The notes under the pieces were generated by a model that was not told the origin of the DNA, ran no database searches, and saw only the letters and a list, made by a program, of their open reading frames with translations. A stretch of 64,000 nucleotides of DNA from Chamaesiphon minutus PCC 6605 (GTDB lineage Bacteria; Cyanobacteriota; Cyanobacteriia; Cyanobacteriales; Chamaesiphonaceae), in assembly GCF_000317145.1 (NCBI RefSeq), contig NC_019697.1, positions 372,001 to 436,000 of the forward strand. The letters are read 5' to 3'. Each line of letters starts with the position of its first letter. Position 1 is the stretch's first letter. This document shows, one piece after another, positions 5,122 through 60,200 of the stretch. The position numbers were made by a program, and so were the translations under genes.

Positions 5122-8100
5122 TTAGCGAGCCAACCAGCGATTGGCTTGTTCGATGAGATCGGGAATTTGACGATCGATCTGCCATACGAGCGGGATGCCA
5201 TCGTCGCCGCCAGCAAGTAAATACTTGCCATCTCTACTAAAATTGATACTTCTAATTGTGCCCCAATAGCCCCGAAAATCGGCCAACTGACGACCGCGAA
5301 CGTCCCAGATTCTTAAGGCTGCGCCAGCACCGCCAGTGGCGATCGAGCCATCTTGACTGCTAATATCGATATTTTCTGTGCCCGCCTGATAAGTTTGGAC
5401 ACCTTTCTCATCTTCAATTAATTTAGCTTCAATCTCCGACCTCCAGATTTTACCTTCTTTACTGACGATCGTAAACAATTGCGGATCTTTACTAAAGCCA
5501 ACTATGACTTTACTTCTGAGAGCTTTTTCGCGATCGTATTTTAACTTTTTGACCTGTGGTATTTGGGCGAGACGCTCGATTTTGGTAATCAAAGCAACTC
5601 GACCTTTATCGGCACCGATTCCTAGACTTTCGCCATCTTTGCTAAATCTTAAAGTGAGATGCGAGTAATCCAAGTGGATGGGTGGGATGACGATCGAATC
5701 TACTAGTTTATTTTCGTTGATATCGATCGCCCAAAATTTGATATTATCGCCAGTTTGTCCGGTTGTTGCTAGCAAACAGACATCGGCTCGATCGCCATAA
5801 GGTTTATAATTCCAATCCATACTATCTACATTACCTTGTCCGGTATTAAAACTACTAACTTCAACAATATTCTGCTTGTCGCCATCAGTTTCGATCTCGA
5901 GCAATCTAATATTTCCCTGAGAGTCACCAACGGCGATCGATCTTTTGTTGGGAGTAGAATTAGGATAAATCCGAATGGTATTAAATTTAATCTTCTTGTC
6001 TTTAGCAGAAAAACTACTTAATTGTTGAGGGAGCTGACCGGGACTATGAGACCACCAGGCGATTTTGCCATCTTCCCCTGCTGTAATAAAATACCTAGAA
6101 TCATAAGGATCGAACCGCACACTATTGATTTTTTCTTGATGCTTATGTTTTGAGGGCATCACTTCTGGTATTTTCCAGATCCGAATGATACTATCATCCC
6201 GACCGCTAGTTGCTAATTGTCGATCGAGATTACTATTAGGTTTGAATCGCATACTTTCGATCGATCCTTGATGACCTTTAAATTCGGTAATTAATTTACC
6301 ATTATCTTCAAGATTCCAAATTCTGACCGAATTACCATTACTCGCCGTCGGATCTTTAGCAGATGCTGTGGCTAATAGTTTGCCATCAGGACTAAATCGA
6401 ACTGCTCTAACTTCTCCAGTATGCGCGTTAATTGTCTTGAGATACTTACCATCAGCACTCCACAGCCTTACGGTGCCATCGCTGCTCCCTGTGGCGATTT
6501 CATAATCGGTACAATTGTTAGATACCGACGAGCAAAAGTAAATACTATTGACTGCACCGATATGACCGCTAAGAATCGCGATCGGGTTACCATCTAAATC
6601 CCAAATTTTTGCTGTATTATCTTGACCAGCACTGCCAATTCGATCTTTTTTACCATTTAAATTAAGAGAGACAACCCCCTGTGGATGAGCGACATTACCA
6701 TCAAGAGCGACGAATGTTTTAAGTAAATTTAAGCGATTGTTATTATCAAATTGCCACTTTTTTAATTTACCATCAGTTTCACCAGTACTAAATACATACA
6801 AACGATCGTCACGACGATCGCGTAGCAATCGTACATTTTGAACACTACCTTGATGCGCTGCGGCTTGATCGATCTTTGCTTTGTTTTGAATCCGATCGAT
6901 CCCTAATTTTTCCCACAGTCTGATATAACCATCGCTACTACCAGTTGCAAACATGCGATCGCATTCAGGATTTTCGGAGGTGAAACTAATAATTTTAGCT
7001 TCATCTTGGAGCGCGATCGCGGGTTTTGGTTCGCTAATTGGGATATTTGCAGTCCGATCCCAGAGTTTAATCGTGCCATCGCTTCCTGCCGTAAAGATGC
7101 GATCGTTTCCGCAAAAATAGACTGTATTTACACCTTGCTGATAGGTCTGAATCTCATCGATTTCTTGAATGCTATCGACGAGCTTTTGGAGAGCTAATTT
7201 GGGGCCAATTGTCGGCGATCGATCGCCCATTAAGGTCATTCTAATCGCTTGAGATTTTTTGGCATTCTCGATGGCAGCTTGGAGAGAATCGATCGGGGCA
7301 AATTCATACTGTTGCATAATCTGAGTGCTAGTGCGTTCGAGTCGATCGAGCCTGTCGGAAATTGTCAGGCTACGACCGAGCCAAATTAGACTAACTAATA
7401 AAACTAAGCCGATGCCAATTAATAGTAGGAGAATTTTAACAAATTTTTTAATTCGATCTTGAATTTTTTTGAGCTTCCAATCCGTGCGCCGTGCTTGAGA
7501 GCGATCGATAAAAGCGGTGTCTTCAATCCCAATCAATTGATTTTGTCGCCACTGAAATTCTTTCCAAGAAATTGCGGCATCTAAAGCATCGCCATCTAGC
7601 AGGAAGACATCAGATCGATCGCGATCGAGCCAATCAGTTAGAGCCTTACCATGGGGACAGATATCCGCCAACTGTCGATCGACCCAATCGCGACTAAATA
7701 CCTGCTGGTAGATCGGATTATAAACTTGTAATTTACCCGCTCGTTCGACTACTAATCCCGACAATCTCAGCGATTGTTGTTCGGGACTATTATTCGCAAT
7801 TAGGCCAGATTTGGATGTAATAATATAGCGATATTGTTGGAGTAAATGGCTGGATATTTCGCGCTTTGCCAAGAGGCGTGCTTCGATCGTGCGTAAGTGA
7901 ACGGGACTATCTCGCTCTTTCCAATTATCGATAATTTTTGTGCTGACAATTTGGGCGATCGCATCTTGGGGCGATTCAACTACTAACTGACATAATTTTT
8001 GGGTCAGAAAAGGTTGTCCCCCAGTCCAATCGAGAATTTCGGCGATCGTCTGGCTGGGATTGGCGACGCTCCCCTCTAAACCTCGGATCAAGGGTGAAAG

Positions 8101-8655
8101 ATCGTCCGTTATTTGCAATCCATTTAACTCGATCGCCCGACCGATATTAAAGGGGGTAATTTGTCGATCTTTAATCAAGTCCGTCGGTGCGGCTACGCCT
8201 AATAATACAAAGGATAATCGTTGATATTTAGGTCTAGCAGCGCGTCGTTCCGCACAGCTTCGGATCGTGCCAAAAAAGTTATCGGTAAAGGCACCTAAAC
8301 TCAAAACTTGGTCGATTTCATCGATAAAAATTACAATCTGACTATCGATCTGCTCCAGCACGATCTCATCGATAAAATTTGCCAACCTCTTACTCTCTGG
8401 AAGTCGAGCGTGAGTATCCCAAAAAATTTCTAACTCCGCATCTAAATCGAATTGAGTGGCTAACTCGTCCGCGATCGAGTTATACCACTGTGCTTCGCTT
8501 ACATCCACCGTACCGATCCCCGCCAGATCGATCTCGACACACGCCACCCCTCGATCTGCCAATTTCTGCATCGCGCGCAGTTTGAGGCTAGATTTGCCCA
8601 TCTGGCGGGAGTTCAAAATATAGCAAAACTCACCGCTATCGATGTACCGATCCAA
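5122..8655 (-). CDS. AAA-like domain protein with transmembrane helix and WD40 propeller (STAND-type)
   Basis: A large cyanobacterial signalling-type NTPase, 1177 residues as drawn. The N-terminal AAA-like (AAA_35) domain has Walker A in S-R-Q-M-G-K-S-S near residues 16-23 and an intact Walker B I-F-I-D-E-I-D-Q near 110. Winged-helix-like sequence follows to about 380. One hydrophobic transmembrane helix lies near 402-425. A coiled stretch leads to at least ten WD40 blades from about 495 to the C-terminus, recognisable by repeated I-K-L-W-D / I-R-I-W tails. Proteins of this architecture sense unknown ligands through the propeller and switch through the NTPase; no substrate is known here. The TTG start at 8655 truncates the family's N-terminus: see the next entry. 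It is transcribed divergently from the second AAA-like gene at 8939. Confidence 0.85.
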   Translation of the reverse strand: MDRYIDSGEFCYILNSRQMGKSSLKLRAMQKLADRGVACVEIDLAGIGTVDVSEAQWYNSIADELATQFDLDAELEIFWDTHARLPESKRLANFIDEIVLEQIDSQIVIFIDEIDQVLSLGAFTDNFFGTIRSCAERRAARPKYQRLSFVLLGVAAPTDLIKDRQITPFNIGRAIELNGLQITDDLSPLIRGLEGSVANPSQTIAEILDWTGGQPFLTQKLCQLVVESPQDAIAQIVSTKIIDNWKERDSPVHLRTIEARLLAKREISSHLLQQYRYIITSKSGLIANNSPEQQSLRLSGLVVERAGKLQVYNPIYQQVFSRDWVDRQLADICPHGKALTDWLDRDRSDVFLLDGDALDAAISWKEFQWRQNQLIGIEDTAFIDRSQARRTDWKLKKIQDRIKKFVKILLLLIGIGLVLLVSLIWLGRSLTISDRLDRLERTSTQIMQQYEFAPIDSLQAAIENAKKSQAIRMTLMGDRSPTIGPKLALQKLVDSIQEIDEIQTYQQGVNTVYFCGNDRIFTAGSDGTIKLWDRTANIPISEPKPAIALQDEAKIISFTSENPECDRMFATGSSDGYIRLWEKLGIDRIQNKAKIDQAAAHQGSVQNVRLLRDRRDDRLYVFSTGETDGKLKKWQFDNNNRLNLLKTFVALDGNVAHPQGVVSLNLNGKKDRIGSAGQDNTAKIWDLDGNPIAILSGHIGAVNSIYFCSSVSNNCTDYEIATGSSDGTVRLWSADGKYLKTINAHTGEVRAVRFSPDGKLLATASAKDPTASNGNSVRIWNLEDNGKLITEFKGHQGSIESMRFKPNSNLDRQLATSGRDDSIIRIWKIPEVMPSKHKHQEKINSVRFDPYDSRYFITAGEDGKIAWWSHSPGQLPQQLSSFSAKDKKIKFNTIRIYPNSTPNKRSIAVGDSQGNIRLLEIETDGDKQNIVEVSSFNTGQGNVDSMDWNYKPYGDRADVCLLATTGQTGDNIKFWAIDINENKLVDSIVIPPIHLDYSHLTLRFSKDGESLGIGADKGRVALITKIERLAQIPQVKKLKYDREKALRSKVIVGFSKDPQLFTIVSKEGKIWRSEIEAKLIEDEKGVQTYQAGTENIDISSQDGSIATGGAGAALRIWDVRGRQLADFRGYWGTIRSINFSRDGKYLLAGGDDGIPLVWQIDRQIPDLIEQANRWLAR

Positions 8656-8863
8656 ATCTCGATCGGCGGATCTGACGACATAGGTAGGTGCATTTGCGGG
8701 GAGACTACCACCAATTTTATATGCGATCTTGCCGATAGCCGCTCTCCTCGTCTGAGTGACAATGCTGTGGGACTTTGGATCTAATTTATTTTCCCACCAT
8801 TTCGCTCGACTGGTATCGACTTATCAAAGTCGATATCGACTTTGGTGGCGAACTATCTTTCAT
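8656..8863 (-). other. Missing N-terminus of the AAA-WD40 gene: in-frame homology without start, probable frameshift
   Basis: Upstream of the TTG at 8655 the same frame stays open to 8820 and reads family-typical sequence (I-G-G-S-L-P-A-N-A-P-T-Y-V-V-R-S-A-D, about 8656-8715), so translation must begin further upstream. No ATG, GTG or TTG occurs in that frame. An ATG at 8863, preceded by GGGTGGGGAG, opens a second frame that runs to a TAA at about 8789. Removing one base near the CCC/TTTT run at 8789-8795 (plus strand) would join the two frames. Either the gene is frameshifted, it uses a recoding event, or an unusual start such as ATT is used. Confidence 0.6.
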
Positions 8864-8938
8864 ACTCCCCACCCCCTGCTCTGTGCCAAATGCAGCCAGC
8901 AAAGTTCTAAAATGTAGTCAGCACTTCTCTGGCATACT

Positions 8939-10189
8939 ATGACTCGTCGATCGTTGCAACTGCGCCCAACTCATGTGAAGGATGCAAAAGCAGCATTCAA
9001 GCAGAGTAAATATACCACTCAAATCGGTCTGGCGATCGAAGCTGAGATTCAGGCGCAATCGACGGTGAGTGCTTTTTTTTGCGGTAGACCGCTGGATCGA
9101 GCCAACTTTAACAAACTTTGCGAACTATTAGATCTCGATCCGCTGGTTGTTGGCGAAGAACCGTTACCAGCTCCAGCCGTCAATAATAATTCGATTCCCG
9201 TTGCAGCTCCAGCTCCCGCGCTTTGTCGAGAGCGCGAAAATTTGTGGTACCAGCAGCTTTTGGCACCCCATGCTTTAATTAGAATTCAGGCTCCCGCTCA
9301 ATTTGGCAAAACTTCATTATTGTGGAAACTACTCGATCGCGCCGAACAGCAGGGACATTTATGTTTATACCTAAATCTTAATTCGATCGAGCCTGCTGGT
9401 TTTACAGATTCTAAGGCTTTTTTTCGAGCTTTTGTCTGCGAAATTGCTAGCGAGATCGCCGAAAAATATGTCGATTGTTTGATGTCATTAAGTCGTTATG
9501 ACGAACTAGCGGCATCGCTGACTCATACTAAAGCTTTTCTCAAATATCTCGAACATTTACAACAAAAAATAGCGCACCCTTTGACGATCGCGATTAATAA
9601 GCTCGATCGATTATTAGATTTCCCTGCTATTGCCGACGAATTTTTATTTCAGTTGCGAAATGTGAATGAAAAAAGTAAGAAAGGTGGCATTTGGGGAAAT
9701 TTTCGTCTCTTGTTGGCTTATTCTACGCCCAGAATCGAAGAGTTTGTAAATATTGCCGAAAATCGATCGCCATTTAATGTCGGCTATTCGATCGAGTTAG
9801 AAGAATTCAGTCCTAGTGAAGTAGCCGCACTAGCCGCGAGCAAAGGATTGGTTCTAGATGCAGCGCAAATTGAAGCCTTAATGCAACCGATCGGCGGTAT
9901 TCCCAGCCTAATTCAATTGACACTTAAAAGTCTAAGCGAAAACGAATCGCTCCAATTTGATTTAGCCACTACCGAGCCGCTGTATCAGGAGCATTTAGCA
10001 GTCCTCAAACTGTGGCTGCAACAGCGAGATTTGTATAACTTAATGCGCCAAATTGCGACCAATCCCACGACAACAACAGTCTCCCCAAAACAACGCAGTC
10101 TCCTTCATCGTCAGGGCTTAATTATTTCACTCGATCGTCAAGTCCGCGCTAGATGCGAACTCTATCGTCGCTACTTTGCATGGAACTAA
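8939..10189 (+). CDS. HTH-AAA-like domain protein with degenerate Walker B
   Basis: 416 residues. Residues 1-75 form a helix-turn-helix-like module common at the front of cyanobacterial STAND proteins (A-x-x-A-F-K-Q-S-K-Y-T-T ... T-V-S-A-F-F-C-G-R-P-L-D ... L-C-E-L-L-D-L-D). A linker follows, then an AAA-like (AAA_35) domain with Walker A A-P-A-Q-F-G-K-T-S at about 117-125. The Walker B position reads A-I-N-K-L-D-R-L where relatives have L-D-E-V-D-R, so both acidic residues are replaced and ATP hydrolysis is probably lost while nucleotide binding may remain. No sensor repeats follow, and the protein ends shortly after the AAA fold. Divergent from the AAA-WD40 gene, with starts only about 75 bp apart if 8863 is used. 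Partner or regulator of that protein is an inference. Confidence 0.8.
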   Translation: MTRRSLQLRPTHVKDAKAAFKQSKYTTQIGLAIEAEIQAQSTVSAFFCGRPLDRANFNKLCELLDLDPLVVGEEPLPAPAVNNNSIPVAAPAPALCRERENLWYQQLLAPHALIRIQAPAQFGKTSLLWKLLDRAEQQGHLCLYLNLNSIEPAGFTDSKAFFRAFVCEIASEIAEKYVDCLMSLSRYDELAASLTHTKAFLKYLEHLQQKIAHPLTIAINKLDRLLDFPAIADEFLFQLRNVNEKSKKGGIWGNFRLLLAYSTPRIEEFVNIAENRSPFNVGYSIELEEFSPSEVAALAASKGLVLDAAQIEALMQPIGGIPSLIQLTLKSLSENESLQFDLATTEPLYQEHLAVLKLWLQQRDLYNLMRQIATNPTTTTVSPKQRSLLHRQGLIISLDRQVRARCELYRRYFAWN

Positions 10190-10266
10190 TCTCGATATCG
10201 ACTTTAGCTATCTCATCATCTGCAATTCACTCAATGTACTAAAGTGGAGATCTCGTGAGGAAGGGG

Positions 10267-10319: not shown

Positions 10320-10449
10320 CAGTTCCATATTAACTATTAACTATCCACTATCCACTATCCACTATTCACTATCAACTCTTAACTATCAACTATCAACTAT
10401 CAACTATCCACTATCAACTATCAACTATCCACTATCAACTATCCACTAT
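10320..10449. repeat. Heptamer tandem repeat array, unit CTATCAA / CTATCCA
   Basis: About 18 copies of a 7-base unit (CTATCAA alternating with CTATCCA, with a few CTATTAA and CTCTTAA variants) fill the spacer right up to the start codon of the aspartoacylase gene. The interleaving of two unit variants suggests growth by slippage of blocks. Frames that run through it on either strand are repeat translation and not genes. The array occupies the position of the ribosome-binding site of the next gene. Confidence 0.9.
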
Positions 10450-11341
10450 GAATTTGTTGTCAGGATCTATTCGACGGGTAGCAATTGTCGGCGGAACGCA
10501 TGGCAATGAGTTGACGGGTATTTATACGATCGAGAACTTGAATCGATGCCCACATCCGATCGATGGTTATAGCTTCGAGTGCATGACATTACTAGCCAAT
10601 CCTAAAGCAATTGCCGCCAATCGTCGCTATATCGATCGTGATTTGAATCGTTGTTTTGGCAATGCAGATTTGTCAAATCTAGATTTAACGAACTATGAAG
10701 ATATCCTAGCTAAAGAAATTGCCGCCAAATTAGGCCCTAAAGATCGGCCCCGAGCTGATGTAATTATCGATCTGCATACTTCTACATCCAACATGGGATT
10801 GACGATTTTACTGTCGAGTAAGCATCCATTTAACTTACGATTGGCAGCTTATTTGAGTACGCTTCATCCCGATGTCCGAGTCTGTTGTGGCATCCAATGC
10901 AACCAAGATGCACCGATGTTGCGATCGCTATCGCCATTAGGTTGCACGATCGAAGTTGGCGCGATCGCGCAAGGAATTCTCAATGCCGATCTATTCGATA
11001 AAACCCAGATGTTAGTTCGAGAAACTTTGAATTATATCGATGCTGAAAATCAGAGTAAGCCTTTACCAATTCCAACTGGTTTGACTGTATATCAAACGCT
11101 ATCTTCAGTAGATTACCCGCGCGATTCGTCGGGTAAAATCGAAGCAATGATTCATCCCAAACTTCAATTTCAAGATTATCAACCGCTGCAACCAGGCGAT
11201 CCGATGTTCTGGACATTTACAGGCGAATCGATTCTTTATCAGGGTGAATATACAGTTTTCCCAATCTTTATTAATGAAGCCGCTTATTACGAAAAAGGGA
11301 TTGCGATGTCATTAACAGAAAAACTAGTTTTACAGCCTTAA
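10448..11341 (+). CDS. Aspartoacylase / succinylglutamate desuccinylase family zinc hydrolase
   Basis: 297 residues of the AspA/AstE carboxypeptidase-like family, which removes acyl groups from N-acyl amino acids such as N-acetylaspartate. The zinc ligands are visible: G-G-T-H-G-N-E at 15-21 (His18, Glu21) and D-L-H-T at 109-112 (His110). The substrate-binding D-L-N-R is at 65-68 and a catalytic Glu is likely in T-I-E-V-G near 165. Length fits the cyanobacterial aspartoacylase group. The ATG at 10448 lies at the very end of a heptamer repeat array, so no normal Shine-Dalgarno sequence precedes it; in-frame starts further down would cut the zinc motif. Whether N-acetylaspartate is the true substrate is not shown. 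Confidence 0.88.
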   Translation: MNLLSGSIRRVAIVGGTHGNELTGIYTIENLNRCPHPIDGYSFECMTLLANPKAIAANRRYIDRDLNRCFGNADLSNLDLTNYEDILAKEIAAKLGPKDRPRADVIIDLHTSTSNMGLTILLSSKHPFNLRLAAYLSTLHPDVRVCCGIQCNQDAPMLRSLSPLGCTIEVGAIAQGILNADLFDKTQMLVRETLNYIDAENQSKPLPIPTGLTVYQTLSSVDYPRDSSGKIEAMIHPKLQFQDYQPLQPGDPMFWTFTGESILYQGEYTVFPIFINEAAYYEKGIAMSLTEKLVLQP

Positions 11342-57231: not shown

Positions 57232-60200
57232 ATGAATATGACCCCTAAAAAGAATCGCCGACGGGGAGTCGTGCTGTCATCAATCGGTCAAAGTAAAATC
57301 GAACAGGCGCGGCGACAACTAGAAAAAACAGAGAATGCGGGCGATCGACTGACGATCGAAGAACTCAGCGAGCGATCGCGGTTATCTATAGCCACCATGA
57401 CAAAGGTTTTAGCCGCTCGAATCGGCGTGGATAAGCAGACTCTAGATCTAGTATTTGTGGCCTTTGGGTTGCAGATGGAACGCGCCGATTATCAGCAACC
57501 GGAACATCACGAGGAGCCAGCGGAGATTCAAATCGATTCCCCCACAACGCAGATCATCGATTGGGGTGAAGCGATCGATGTTTCGATGTTTTACGGGCGA
57601 GATTCAGAAATTACCACGCTGACAACTTGGATTCAACAAGATAACTGTCGCCTAATTGCTTTATTGGGTATGGGCGGGATTGGCAAAACCGCTCTATCGG
57701 TCAAAATCGCCCAGCAACTCTTGCAAACTGAGCGATCCTTTGAATTTATCATTTGGCGTAGTCTTCGCAATGCTCCACCCTTAGAGTCCCTGCTGATTGA
57801 CATCATCCAAGTGCTGTCCTGTCAGCAAGAAAACTTGGTTTCTTTGCCGATTTCAGCTCTATTAAATCGGTTACTGCATTACTTGCGATCGCATCGCTGT
57901 TTGCTGGTGTTAGACAATGGCGAAACCATCTTACAGAGTGGGGAATTTGCGGGAATCTATCGTCAAGATTATGAAGCCTATGGCGAACTATTCCGTCAGG
58001 CGGGTGAAATTTCCCATCAGAGTTGTCTGGTGCTAACCAGTCGCGAGAAACCAGAAACGATCGCCAATTTGGAGGGAATAACCTTACCAGTTCGAGCGAT
58101 TGCCCTGACTGGATTATCGCCGAATGATAGCGATCGATTGTTTGCAGCGATCGGATTATCCTCATCATCAGCGATCGACAGACACAAGCTAATCGAAGTT
58201 TATGGTGGTAATCCCCTCGCTCTGAAAATTGTCGCCACCTCGATTCGAGAAATTTTTGATGGCAATGTCGATGGGTTTTTACATGCCGAAACTACTGTTT
58301 TTAATGGCATTCGGCGGTTACTAGACCAACAATACCAGCGGCTGATGCCGATCGAACGACAAGTAATGACGTGGTTGGCGATCGATCGCGATTGGGCAAC
58401 TCTGGCTCAATTACAGGCGGATATCGTCCCGGCTGTCAGCACCCAGGGATTAATGGAAGCCTTAGAGTCTCTATCGCGGCGCAGTCTAATCGAGCAAAAA
58501 AACGCCCGCTTTACCCAACAACCAGTCGTCATGGAATACATGACCGAGCATTTAATCAACCAAATCTGTGCCGAAATCACTAACTGTCAACTGTCAACTG
58601 TCAACTGTCAACTGTTCAACACTTACGCTCTATCTAAAACCACCGTCAAAGAATATATTCGCGAGAGTCAAATTAGGTTGATTTTACAGCCGATCGCCCG
58701 ATATCTGCGGGAGAGATTTAGATCGATCGAGCAGCTAGAGCGGCAGATGGGGCAAATTTTAGATCTGGTAAGGCGATCGGAAATCGCCGGATCGAGTTAT
58801 GGAGCCGGAAATGCGATCGGTTTAATGCAAGATCTCCACATCGATCTGACTGGCTATACTTTTGCGAACCTCACCATTCGTCAAGCCTGTTTGCAAAAAA
58901 CCCCCTTGCACCAGGTTAATCTTGCTCGCGCTCATCTGATGGATTGCCGATTTGCCGAGCCGATGAATGAGCCACATTCATCAGCAATCGATACCACTGG
59001 CGAACTGCTAGCTATGGGGGGGCAGGATGGCACGGTACAGATGCGGCAAGCATCGACAGGGCAACTATTATTCTCCGTTCGAGCGCATACAACCTTTGTA
59101 TTAGCTCTGACTTTTAGCCCCGATAGCAAAACCCTCGTAAGTGGCTGTATCGGTGGGGGGATAAAATTCTGGGATGTCCACACGGGCAACTGCCAGCAGA
59201 CTTGGGACAAAGGCAGGATTTGGACTTTGGATTTTAGTCCTGACGGGCGATTATTAGTAGCAGGTTTGAGCGATCGCGATAACTCGATTTGTATTTGGGA
59301 TGTACAGACAGCAGAATGCCTCAAAATTTTAATCGGGCATTCTGCCCCAGTCTGTGGCATTGCTTTTGCACCATACCCCATTGACAATCGACAACTGATG
59401 GTGACGACAGGGCAAGATTCCGTAGTGAAGATTTGGGATGTCGAAAGTGGCGGTTGCGTTCGGACTTTGACCGAACATACCGGACAGATCTGGTCGGTGT
59501 GTTTTCATCCCGACGGAGATCGGTTTGCTACCTGTAGCTTCGATCGTTCCATTAAGATTTGGGATGTAACAACGGGTGCTTGTCTCCAGACGCTACTAGG
59601 TCATACCAAAGAAGTATCTAGAGTTAGATTTAGTCCCGACGGTCACTTATTAGTCAGTGCCTGCACAGATCGCACTGCTCGGCTGTGGGACACCGTAACT
59701 GGCAAATGTCTCAAAGTGTTGCAAGGACACCAGGAGCCAGTTTGGGCGGTAGAATTTACCGCAGGTTATCTTGGCTCCACTGCGCGGAACGAGCATCAAT
59801 CGGGTAGTTCGATCGCCGAACGATTCCTCGTAAGTATCGGACTCGATCGCACCGTTCGATTTTGGGAGATCGTTTATCAGTACCGATCCAATCCGCTCTC
59901 GATCGATCCTGCTTCCATTTCCAGTCATTGCCTGAAAACCATTCAGGGTGGTGGCGAGGGGATTCGTGTCATGGCGATCCATCCCGATCGACAGTTATTT
60001 GCCAGCGGTGGTATGAGTGAATCGATCCATGTATGGGAACTATGCGATCGATCCGAGCCATGCCAGCCACACGAACCGATCGGCACGAGTGCGCCAACCG
60101 GAAAATGTCTCCAAAAACTTACCGTTCATAACTCAAGTAGCTGGACGATTGCCTTTCACCCTCAAGGTAAATTGTTAGCCAGCGGACACTTGAATGGCGA

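Follow-up and report, generated by a model that had tools for sequence, protein, structure and literature searches.

The 64,000-nucleotide window analysed here comprises positions 372,001 to 436,000 of contig NC_019697.1 of the cyanobacterium Chamaesiphon minutus PCC 6605, which has a genome of 6.76 Mb; unless stated otherwise, coordinates refer to this window. Two genes for nucleoside triphosphatases (NTPases) with an AAA_35 domain lie back to back in it, a 1232-codon open frame on the minus strand (5125-8820) and a 416-codon gene on the plus strand (8939-10189). A preliminary description of the locus, made from the sequence alone, had called both products AAA_35 proteins and the pair divergent. 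Pfam profile PF14516 matched the minus-strand protein with 110.2 bits (E 1.2e-31) and the plus-strand protein with 221.2 bits (E 2e-65), at a curated cut-off of 27 bits, and the coordinates and strands of the genes confirmed the divergence. Based on the comparisons described here, we propose, with a probability of about 0.65, that the two genes are the halves of a split NTPase switch of the STAND type (signal transduction ATPases with numerous domains), with sensor and output acting in trans.

The two proteins represent different classes of the AAA_35 family. Class I proteins have a high Pfam score, are short and soluble and bear output modules; class II proteins have a low Pfam score, are long, mostly contain a membrane segment and bear sensor modules. 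The same split was seen in relatives. The genes and their domains are:

5122-8736, minus strand: class II (sensor-side) gene, encoding AAA_35 domain, membrane helix and WD40 repeats; putative start at ATC 8736
7693-8709, minus strand: AAA_35 NTPase domain of the class II protein (open-frame residues 38-376; Pfam PF14516 and structure model)
8311-8325, minus strand: Walker B I-D-E-I-D (sequence motif)
7378-7434, minus strand: predicted membrane helix (open-frame residues 463-481)
5176-7200, minus strand: WD40/beta-propeller region (about open-frame residues 541-1215)
8939-10189, plus strand: class I (output-side) gene, encoding a helix-turn-helix (HTH) region and an AAA_35 domain, 416 amino acids; start at ATG 8939
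8945-9139, plus strand: Cro/C1-like HTH region (profile of relatives; helices in the structure model)
9233-10180, plus strand: AAA_35 NTPase domain of the class I protein (residues 99-414; Pfam PF14516 and structure model)
9305-9316, plus strand: Walker A G-K-T-S, intact (sequence motif)
9593-9607, plus strand: Walker B position I-N-K-L-D, both usual acids replaced (sequence motif and class I comparison)

The class II protein, with Walker A GKSS, has the Walker B motif, membrane helix and WD40 propeller attributed to it in the preliminary description: the motif reads IDEID, there is one strong hydrophobic segment (19-residue Kyte-Doolittle mean of 3.06 from open-frame residue 463) and the WD40 repeats were matched by Pfam with E 7e-50. 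The replacement of the acidic pair by INKLD in the class I protein, next to an intact P-loop, was confirmed as well. The HTH-like module was recovered in part; the N-terminus of the 416-residue protein had no Pfam HTH match, and an HTH profile built from its relatives scored 49.5 bits on it. Searches with PADLOC gave no match to this protein and one HEAT/ARM match to the WD40 protein, and the only NCBIfam match was to DS8_antiphage, below the threshold (E 0.02).

Profiles of the two classes were run on 146 genomes of the phylum (E 1e-50). Class I was present in 49 genomes and class II in 47, all of which were among the 49. The copy numbers of the two classes were equal in 30 of the 49 genomes and within one of each other in 44 (rho 0.90; 0.67 for class I against the control family NB-ARC in the same genomes), per-genome counts being lower bounds, since in many genomes the first 14 or 17 candidates were scored. 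Three genomes (G017, G045 and G135) had one gene of each class, unlinked. A class II gene was found within 5 kb of 90 of the 148 class I genes, where approximately one would be expected by chance, given about three class II genes per 5-Mb genome. In 66 of these 90 pairs the genes were tandem with class I leading and in 10 with class II leading; 10 pairs were divergent and 4 convergent. Five of the tandem pairs led by class II are fusions, retrieved open reading frames in which a single chain combines both domains.

A second set consisted of the 80 loci most similar to the query among at least 546 confirmed ones; all 80 are cyanobacterial, which because of this ranking is uninformative on distant phyla. 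In these loci 57 of 81 class I genes were linked to class II, with some frames overlapping or abutting. Sequence distances within the two classes were correlated over 117 linked pairs (Mantel r 0.73; permutation maximum 0.19), a result that joint inheritance would also give. In the sampled cyanobacteria the two classes are paired far above chance. At one locus (L100, 989-17947) a single class I gene precedes a run of four class II genes, all on the same strand. The class I query matched 38 plasmid records and had no match in the phage collection; a first scan of genome contigs with a single protein found nothing.

The domains attached to the NTPases differ between the classes. Pfam scans covered 80 of 125 distinct class I domains and 34 of 121 distinct class II domains, fused and short frames being excluded. 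The class I matches were TIR_2 (16 of 80), HTH_26 (9), CHAT (5), HTH_3 (4) and GGDEF (4), with one or two each of GerE, sigma-70 region 4, kinase, cyclase and trypsin. WD40 was found in 20 of the 34 class II proteins; others had kinase-AAA_16-GAF-PAS or GUN4 architectures. Of 129 class II proteins, 101 had a membrane-like segment after the NTPase; such a segment was present in 2 of 199 class I proteins, the 199 being a pooled, non-random sample from the retrieved loci. On a plasmid of Nostoc sp. HK-01 (L313), a TIR class I gene and a class II gene are located between genes for a type II restriction enzyme and a type III restriction subunit. From the TIR and CHAT forms and this plasmid copy one might suspect a role in defence, and from the HTH form a transcriptional response. 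A Calothrix plasmid carries a class I gene and a WD40 class II gene in divergent orientation, separated by one small gene.

AlphaFold2 models were obtained for the 416-residue protein (predicted local distance difference test, pLDDT, 89.9; predicted TM-score, pTM, 0.75) and for the NTPase part of the class II protein (pLDDT 86.0; pTM 0.75). The best structural matches of both were the archaeal STAND-like ATPases 2qen and 2fna (Z 19-20), followed by plant nucleotide-binding leucine-rich repeat receptors (NLRs), CED-4 and ORC2 (Z about 15-17.5) and Avs5 (about 13). Orc/Cdc6 proteins and TnsC matched both models as well; as Orc/Cdc6 proteins also score, the fold alone does not separate these groups. 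By these alignments both models correspond to the STAND-type fold, which has helical and winged-helix parts. A GxP motif after the NTPase core is a mark of STAND proteins; the AAA_35 proteins have GGxP at this place, with G and P invariant in the class I (24 rows) and class II (26 rows) alignments. Judged from the models, AAA_35 belongs with the STAND-type NTPases, with the Orc/Cdc6 group also close.

The split switch builds on what was obtained by computation, namely the two classes, their co-occurrence, linkage and fusions, the division of outputs and inputs and the predicted fold. In the mechanism that we propose, the class II protein would be the sensor subunit and the class I protein the output subunit, and their STAND-like NTPase domains would assemble into a hetero-oligomer. 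When the WD40 propeller reads a signal, the class II NTPase would change its state and, through the contact between the AAA_35 domains, would bring class I subunits together or set them free, thereby switching the output module. As this module is here a Cro/C1-like HTH, the output would be transcriptional; its targets may include the shared intergenic region with the palindrome described below, a candidate operator. Hydrolysis would occur mainly in the class II subunit, and this class I protein would bind nucleotide and hardly hydrolyse it.

In the preliminary description the altered Walker B had been read as the sign of a nucleotide-bound, non-hydrolysing partner. We therefore compared this position across both classes. 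Class II has DE in 113 of 117 readable domains (121 domains in all). Among the 199 class I domains, 122 have DE and 77 do not, so that a partner with a dead Walker B is ruled out as a general rule. The second acid was gone in 36 class I domains (35 rows in the tree, at least 15 changes) and the first position was other than D in 33 (29 rows, at least 6 changes), as counted on a FastTree tree of 192 rows in which the Walker B columns were kept and some long branches were flagged. The first D was missing from every one of the 15 class I proteins that have a long C-terminal extension (NE in 12, HD in 2 and ND in 1). Only the window protein and its single orthologue had no acid at either position; this orthologue (53%), the only one among the matches listed, is from Chamaesiphon sp. 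GL140_3 and also reads INKLD. An acidic Walker B in orthologues, which would have spoken against the preliminary description, was thus not encountered in the one orthologue found.

These sequence comparisons show a general asymmetry, in which the sensor-side NTPase is conserved and the output-side NTPase relaxed; Walker B erosion is a tendency of class I, and the INKLD protein its extreme case. Alternatively, the class I protein could be locked in the nucleotide-bound form through its dead Walker B, with this lock defining the system. The intact P-loop is consistent with such a lock, as is the conservation of INKLD in the only orthologue found. However, DE is kept by most class I proteins and both acids are lost in just two, so that a locked state would be a local derivation and not a principle of the system. 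In addition, STAND switches are able to signal by nucleotide exchange, and because of this and of the 77 class I domains without DE, the nucleotide-locked state is not established for the window protein. We regard the lock as a defining property as rather unlikely.

Two observations were made on related proteins. GGDEF was found in the extension of three extended class I proteins that were scanned singly (among extended proteins such as those of loci L078, L079 and L089). A fused II-I protein (locus L083, 5200-7929) shows the reverse asymmetry, with IDPVD, and thus loss of the glutamate, in the class II half and DE in the class I half.

A different possibility is that the class I protein acts on transcription only locally, binding the intergenic region that the two genes share and regulating both its own gene and the WD40 gene, and that the two NTPases never touch. 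This region and the end of the class I gene contain:

8826-8843: perfect 18-bp palindrome between the two genes, candidate operator (palindrome search)
10188-10205: copy of this palindrome with two mismatches, at the stop codon of the class I gene (palindrome search)

The 14-bp core of the palindrome occurs at one place in the genome; it was also found upstream of the C. polymorphus gene and was not found in the two GL140_3 loci. Besides the divergent geometry, the HTH and this palindrome, local regulation is favoured by the arrangement of HTH-type class I genes, of which 27 were divergent and 6 tandem, versus 5 divergent and 79 tandem for other class I genes (Fisher p 6e-16). On independent contrasts, however, this link was not significant (2 supported contrasts, 8 on all branches), and with so few contrasts the association may be peculiar to some clades. 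Of 17 close divergent intergenic regions, only 3 had palindromes that surpassed 95 of 100 shuffles. Moreover, class I genes with TIR, CHAT, GGDEF and other non-HTH modules are equally strongly paired with class II, and class II-class I fusions exist. Purely local regulation is therefore quite unlikely.

The split switch was further weighed against the distribution of this exact pair. The genome contains six AAA_35 genes, which the class profiles divide into three of class I and three of class II, and among them is a second divergent class I/class II pair that is retained in C. polymorphus. In GL140_3 only two AAA_35 genes were found, one per class, which are the orthologues of the window pair. 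Several results weigh against our proposal. The two GL140_3 orthologues are on different contigs. The contig that carries the WD40 gene in C. polymorphus matches up to 69 bp short of the position of the HTH gene and has a dispersed repeat at its end; this draft genome yielded no HTH-gene orthologue. With three pairs in the genome, the assignment of class I to class II partners is ambiguous. At the cut-off used, 2 of the 49 genomes with class I (G016 and G076) had no class II, and 58 of 148 class I genes had no class II gene within 5 kb, some of them being at contig ends. The unrelated NB-ARC family correlates with class I too, large genomes being richer in both. The matches of Orc/Cdc6 and TnsC, the contrasts of HTH and geometry and the few notable palindromes given above count on the same side.

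Adjacency of the exact pair, the second point on which the preliminary description could have been contradicted, is consequently unproven outside this genome, since the GL140_3 orthologues are unlinked and the C. polymorphus contig ends in a repeat; it may be recent, or elsewhere lost or unassembled. Taken with the INKLD of the one orthologue, the outcome on the two points is mixed. What recurs elsewhere is the divergent geometry, with other members of the family. The suggestion that a membrane-bound WD40 sensor works with a DNA-binding NTPase partner is supported at the level of the family, by co-occurrence, linkage, fusions and domain split, while the adjacency of these two genes is seen only here; on the sequence evidence we consider their partnership probable. 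The preliminary description had also considered that they are unrelated paralogues; they would then be neighbours by chance in a lineage rich in AAA_35 genes. The unlinked orthologues in GL140_3 and the many STAND-type genes in large genomes would agree with this. It is disfavoured, and in our opinion very unlikely, given 90 linked class I genes out of 148 against about one expected, class I in all 47 genomes with class II, the five fusions and the correlated divergence of linked pairs (with the reservation on joint inheritance made above).

The start of the WD40 gene was initially placed about 75 bp from that of the HTH gene. This spacing is ruled out, as two stop codons close the minus frame just upstream of 8820 and no ATG, GTG or TTG precedes the NTPase domain, the first being TTG 8655, already inside this domain. 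The same lack of a standard start is found in the C. polymorphus gene (locus L048), whose frame is interrupted by a stop 26 codons upstream. Over the 50 codons that begin with TAT 8721, all 6 changes between the two species are synonymous; in the 33 codons upstream of it, 6 of 8 changes are replacements, including one stop. The probable start of translation is therefore the non-standard ATC 8736 or ATT 8763, roughly 175-200 bp from ATG 8939. The first of these is preceded by an AGGAG:

8734-8748, minus strand: AGGAG (8744-8748), then seven bases, then ATC (8734-8736), candidate start; unchanged in C. polymorphus

The WD40 orthologue of GL140_3 (60%) has an ordinary ATG near the same place. That the WD40 gene is decaying and has lost its start codon, as the missing standard start in both species might suggest, is hardly credible in view of a frame that is open over 1224 residues in both at 93% protein identity, the synonymous changes from 8721 on and the AGGAG seven bases ahead of the conserved ATC. 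Taken as a whole, the observations of the preliminary description were mostly right, apart from this spacing, and its interpretation is supported in part.

Some further observations concern the surroundings of the pair. An array of 7-bp repeats (TATCAAC/TATCCAC type) lies at 10328-10466, separating the HTH gene from the gene that follows it; in C. polymorphus, the contig that carries this following gene likewise ends close to this place. The homologue of the alpha/beta-hydrolase-like gene that adjoins the WD40 gene has an in-frame TAG in C. polymorphus (L114). Elsewhere in the window, an NB-ARC domain (57613-58242) within a 1264-codon open frame marks a candidate single-chain STAND protein.

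The closest parallel is formed by the paired sensor and helper NLRs of plants, such as RGA4/RGA5, RRS1/RPS4 and Pik-1/Pik-2 (PMC9528088). These pairs also consist of two STAND-type NTPases, one sensing and one giving the output, their genes are often head-to-head, as at this locus, and some pairs have an unequal need for the nucleotide motif. Genetic clustering is shared at the level of the AAA_35 family (90 of 148 within 5 kb), the exact pair being adjacent in this genome only, and a one-to-one dependence is suggested here by co-occurrence and near-equal copy numbers. In contrast to the NLRs, the AAA_35 arrangement is as a rule tandem, class I before class II (66 of 90 pairs versus 10 divergent). 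The system is bacterial and AAA_35 is not NB-ARC; the sensor carries WD40 or kinase-GAF-PAS modules and a membrane segment instead of leucine-rich repeats with an integrated decoy. Natural fusions exist (five, which give indirect support for a heteromeric complex), the motif erosion is on the output side and not the sensor side, and immunity is only a possible role of AAA_35.

Other systems share fewer properties. Single-chain STAND proteins (Apaf-1/CED-4/Dark and bacterial Avs) resemble the AAA_35 system in the predicted NTPase fold, in their logic of effector, NTPase and sensor and in the TIR, CHAT and WD40 modules, but AAA_35 effector and sensor are on two separate NTPase chains. The vWA-MoxR ternary conflict systems with an inactive STAND (iSTAND), which occur in cyanobacteria among others (PMC7159879), are likewise multi-gene NTPase systems with swappable effectors, including TIR, and one possibly inactive NTPase; their core, however, is MoxR with a vWA protein, and AAA_35 is absent from that text. 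Sigma70 factors with an AAA_35 accessory domain also couple AAA_35 to a transcription module (PMC11119718); in the corresponding part of that paper AAA_35 is merely listed as accessory and no partner NTPase is mentioned. No description of the pairing was found in the literature searched, a scope outside which preprints and most subscription papers fall.

We are evenly divided on whether the pairs form a large cyanobacterial family of bacterial 'paired NLRs', in which a mostly membrane-linked sensor STAND and an output STAND with swappable effectors (TIR, CHAT, GGDEF, sigma-r4 or HTH) work only together. In the window pair the executor would be a transcription factor without catalytic acids, which would leave the pair with a single hydrolysing subunit. 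If true, this would give a function to a family mostly labelled 'AAA-like domain-containing protein' in databases and to numerous cyanobacterial membrane proteins with WD40 repeats that are so far unexplained. The split of sensing and signalling seen in paired NLRs would become open to study in a bacterium, with the natural fusions and swappable outputs as tools, and the division of labour between a sensing and an executing NTPase that is known from plants would exist in bacteria.

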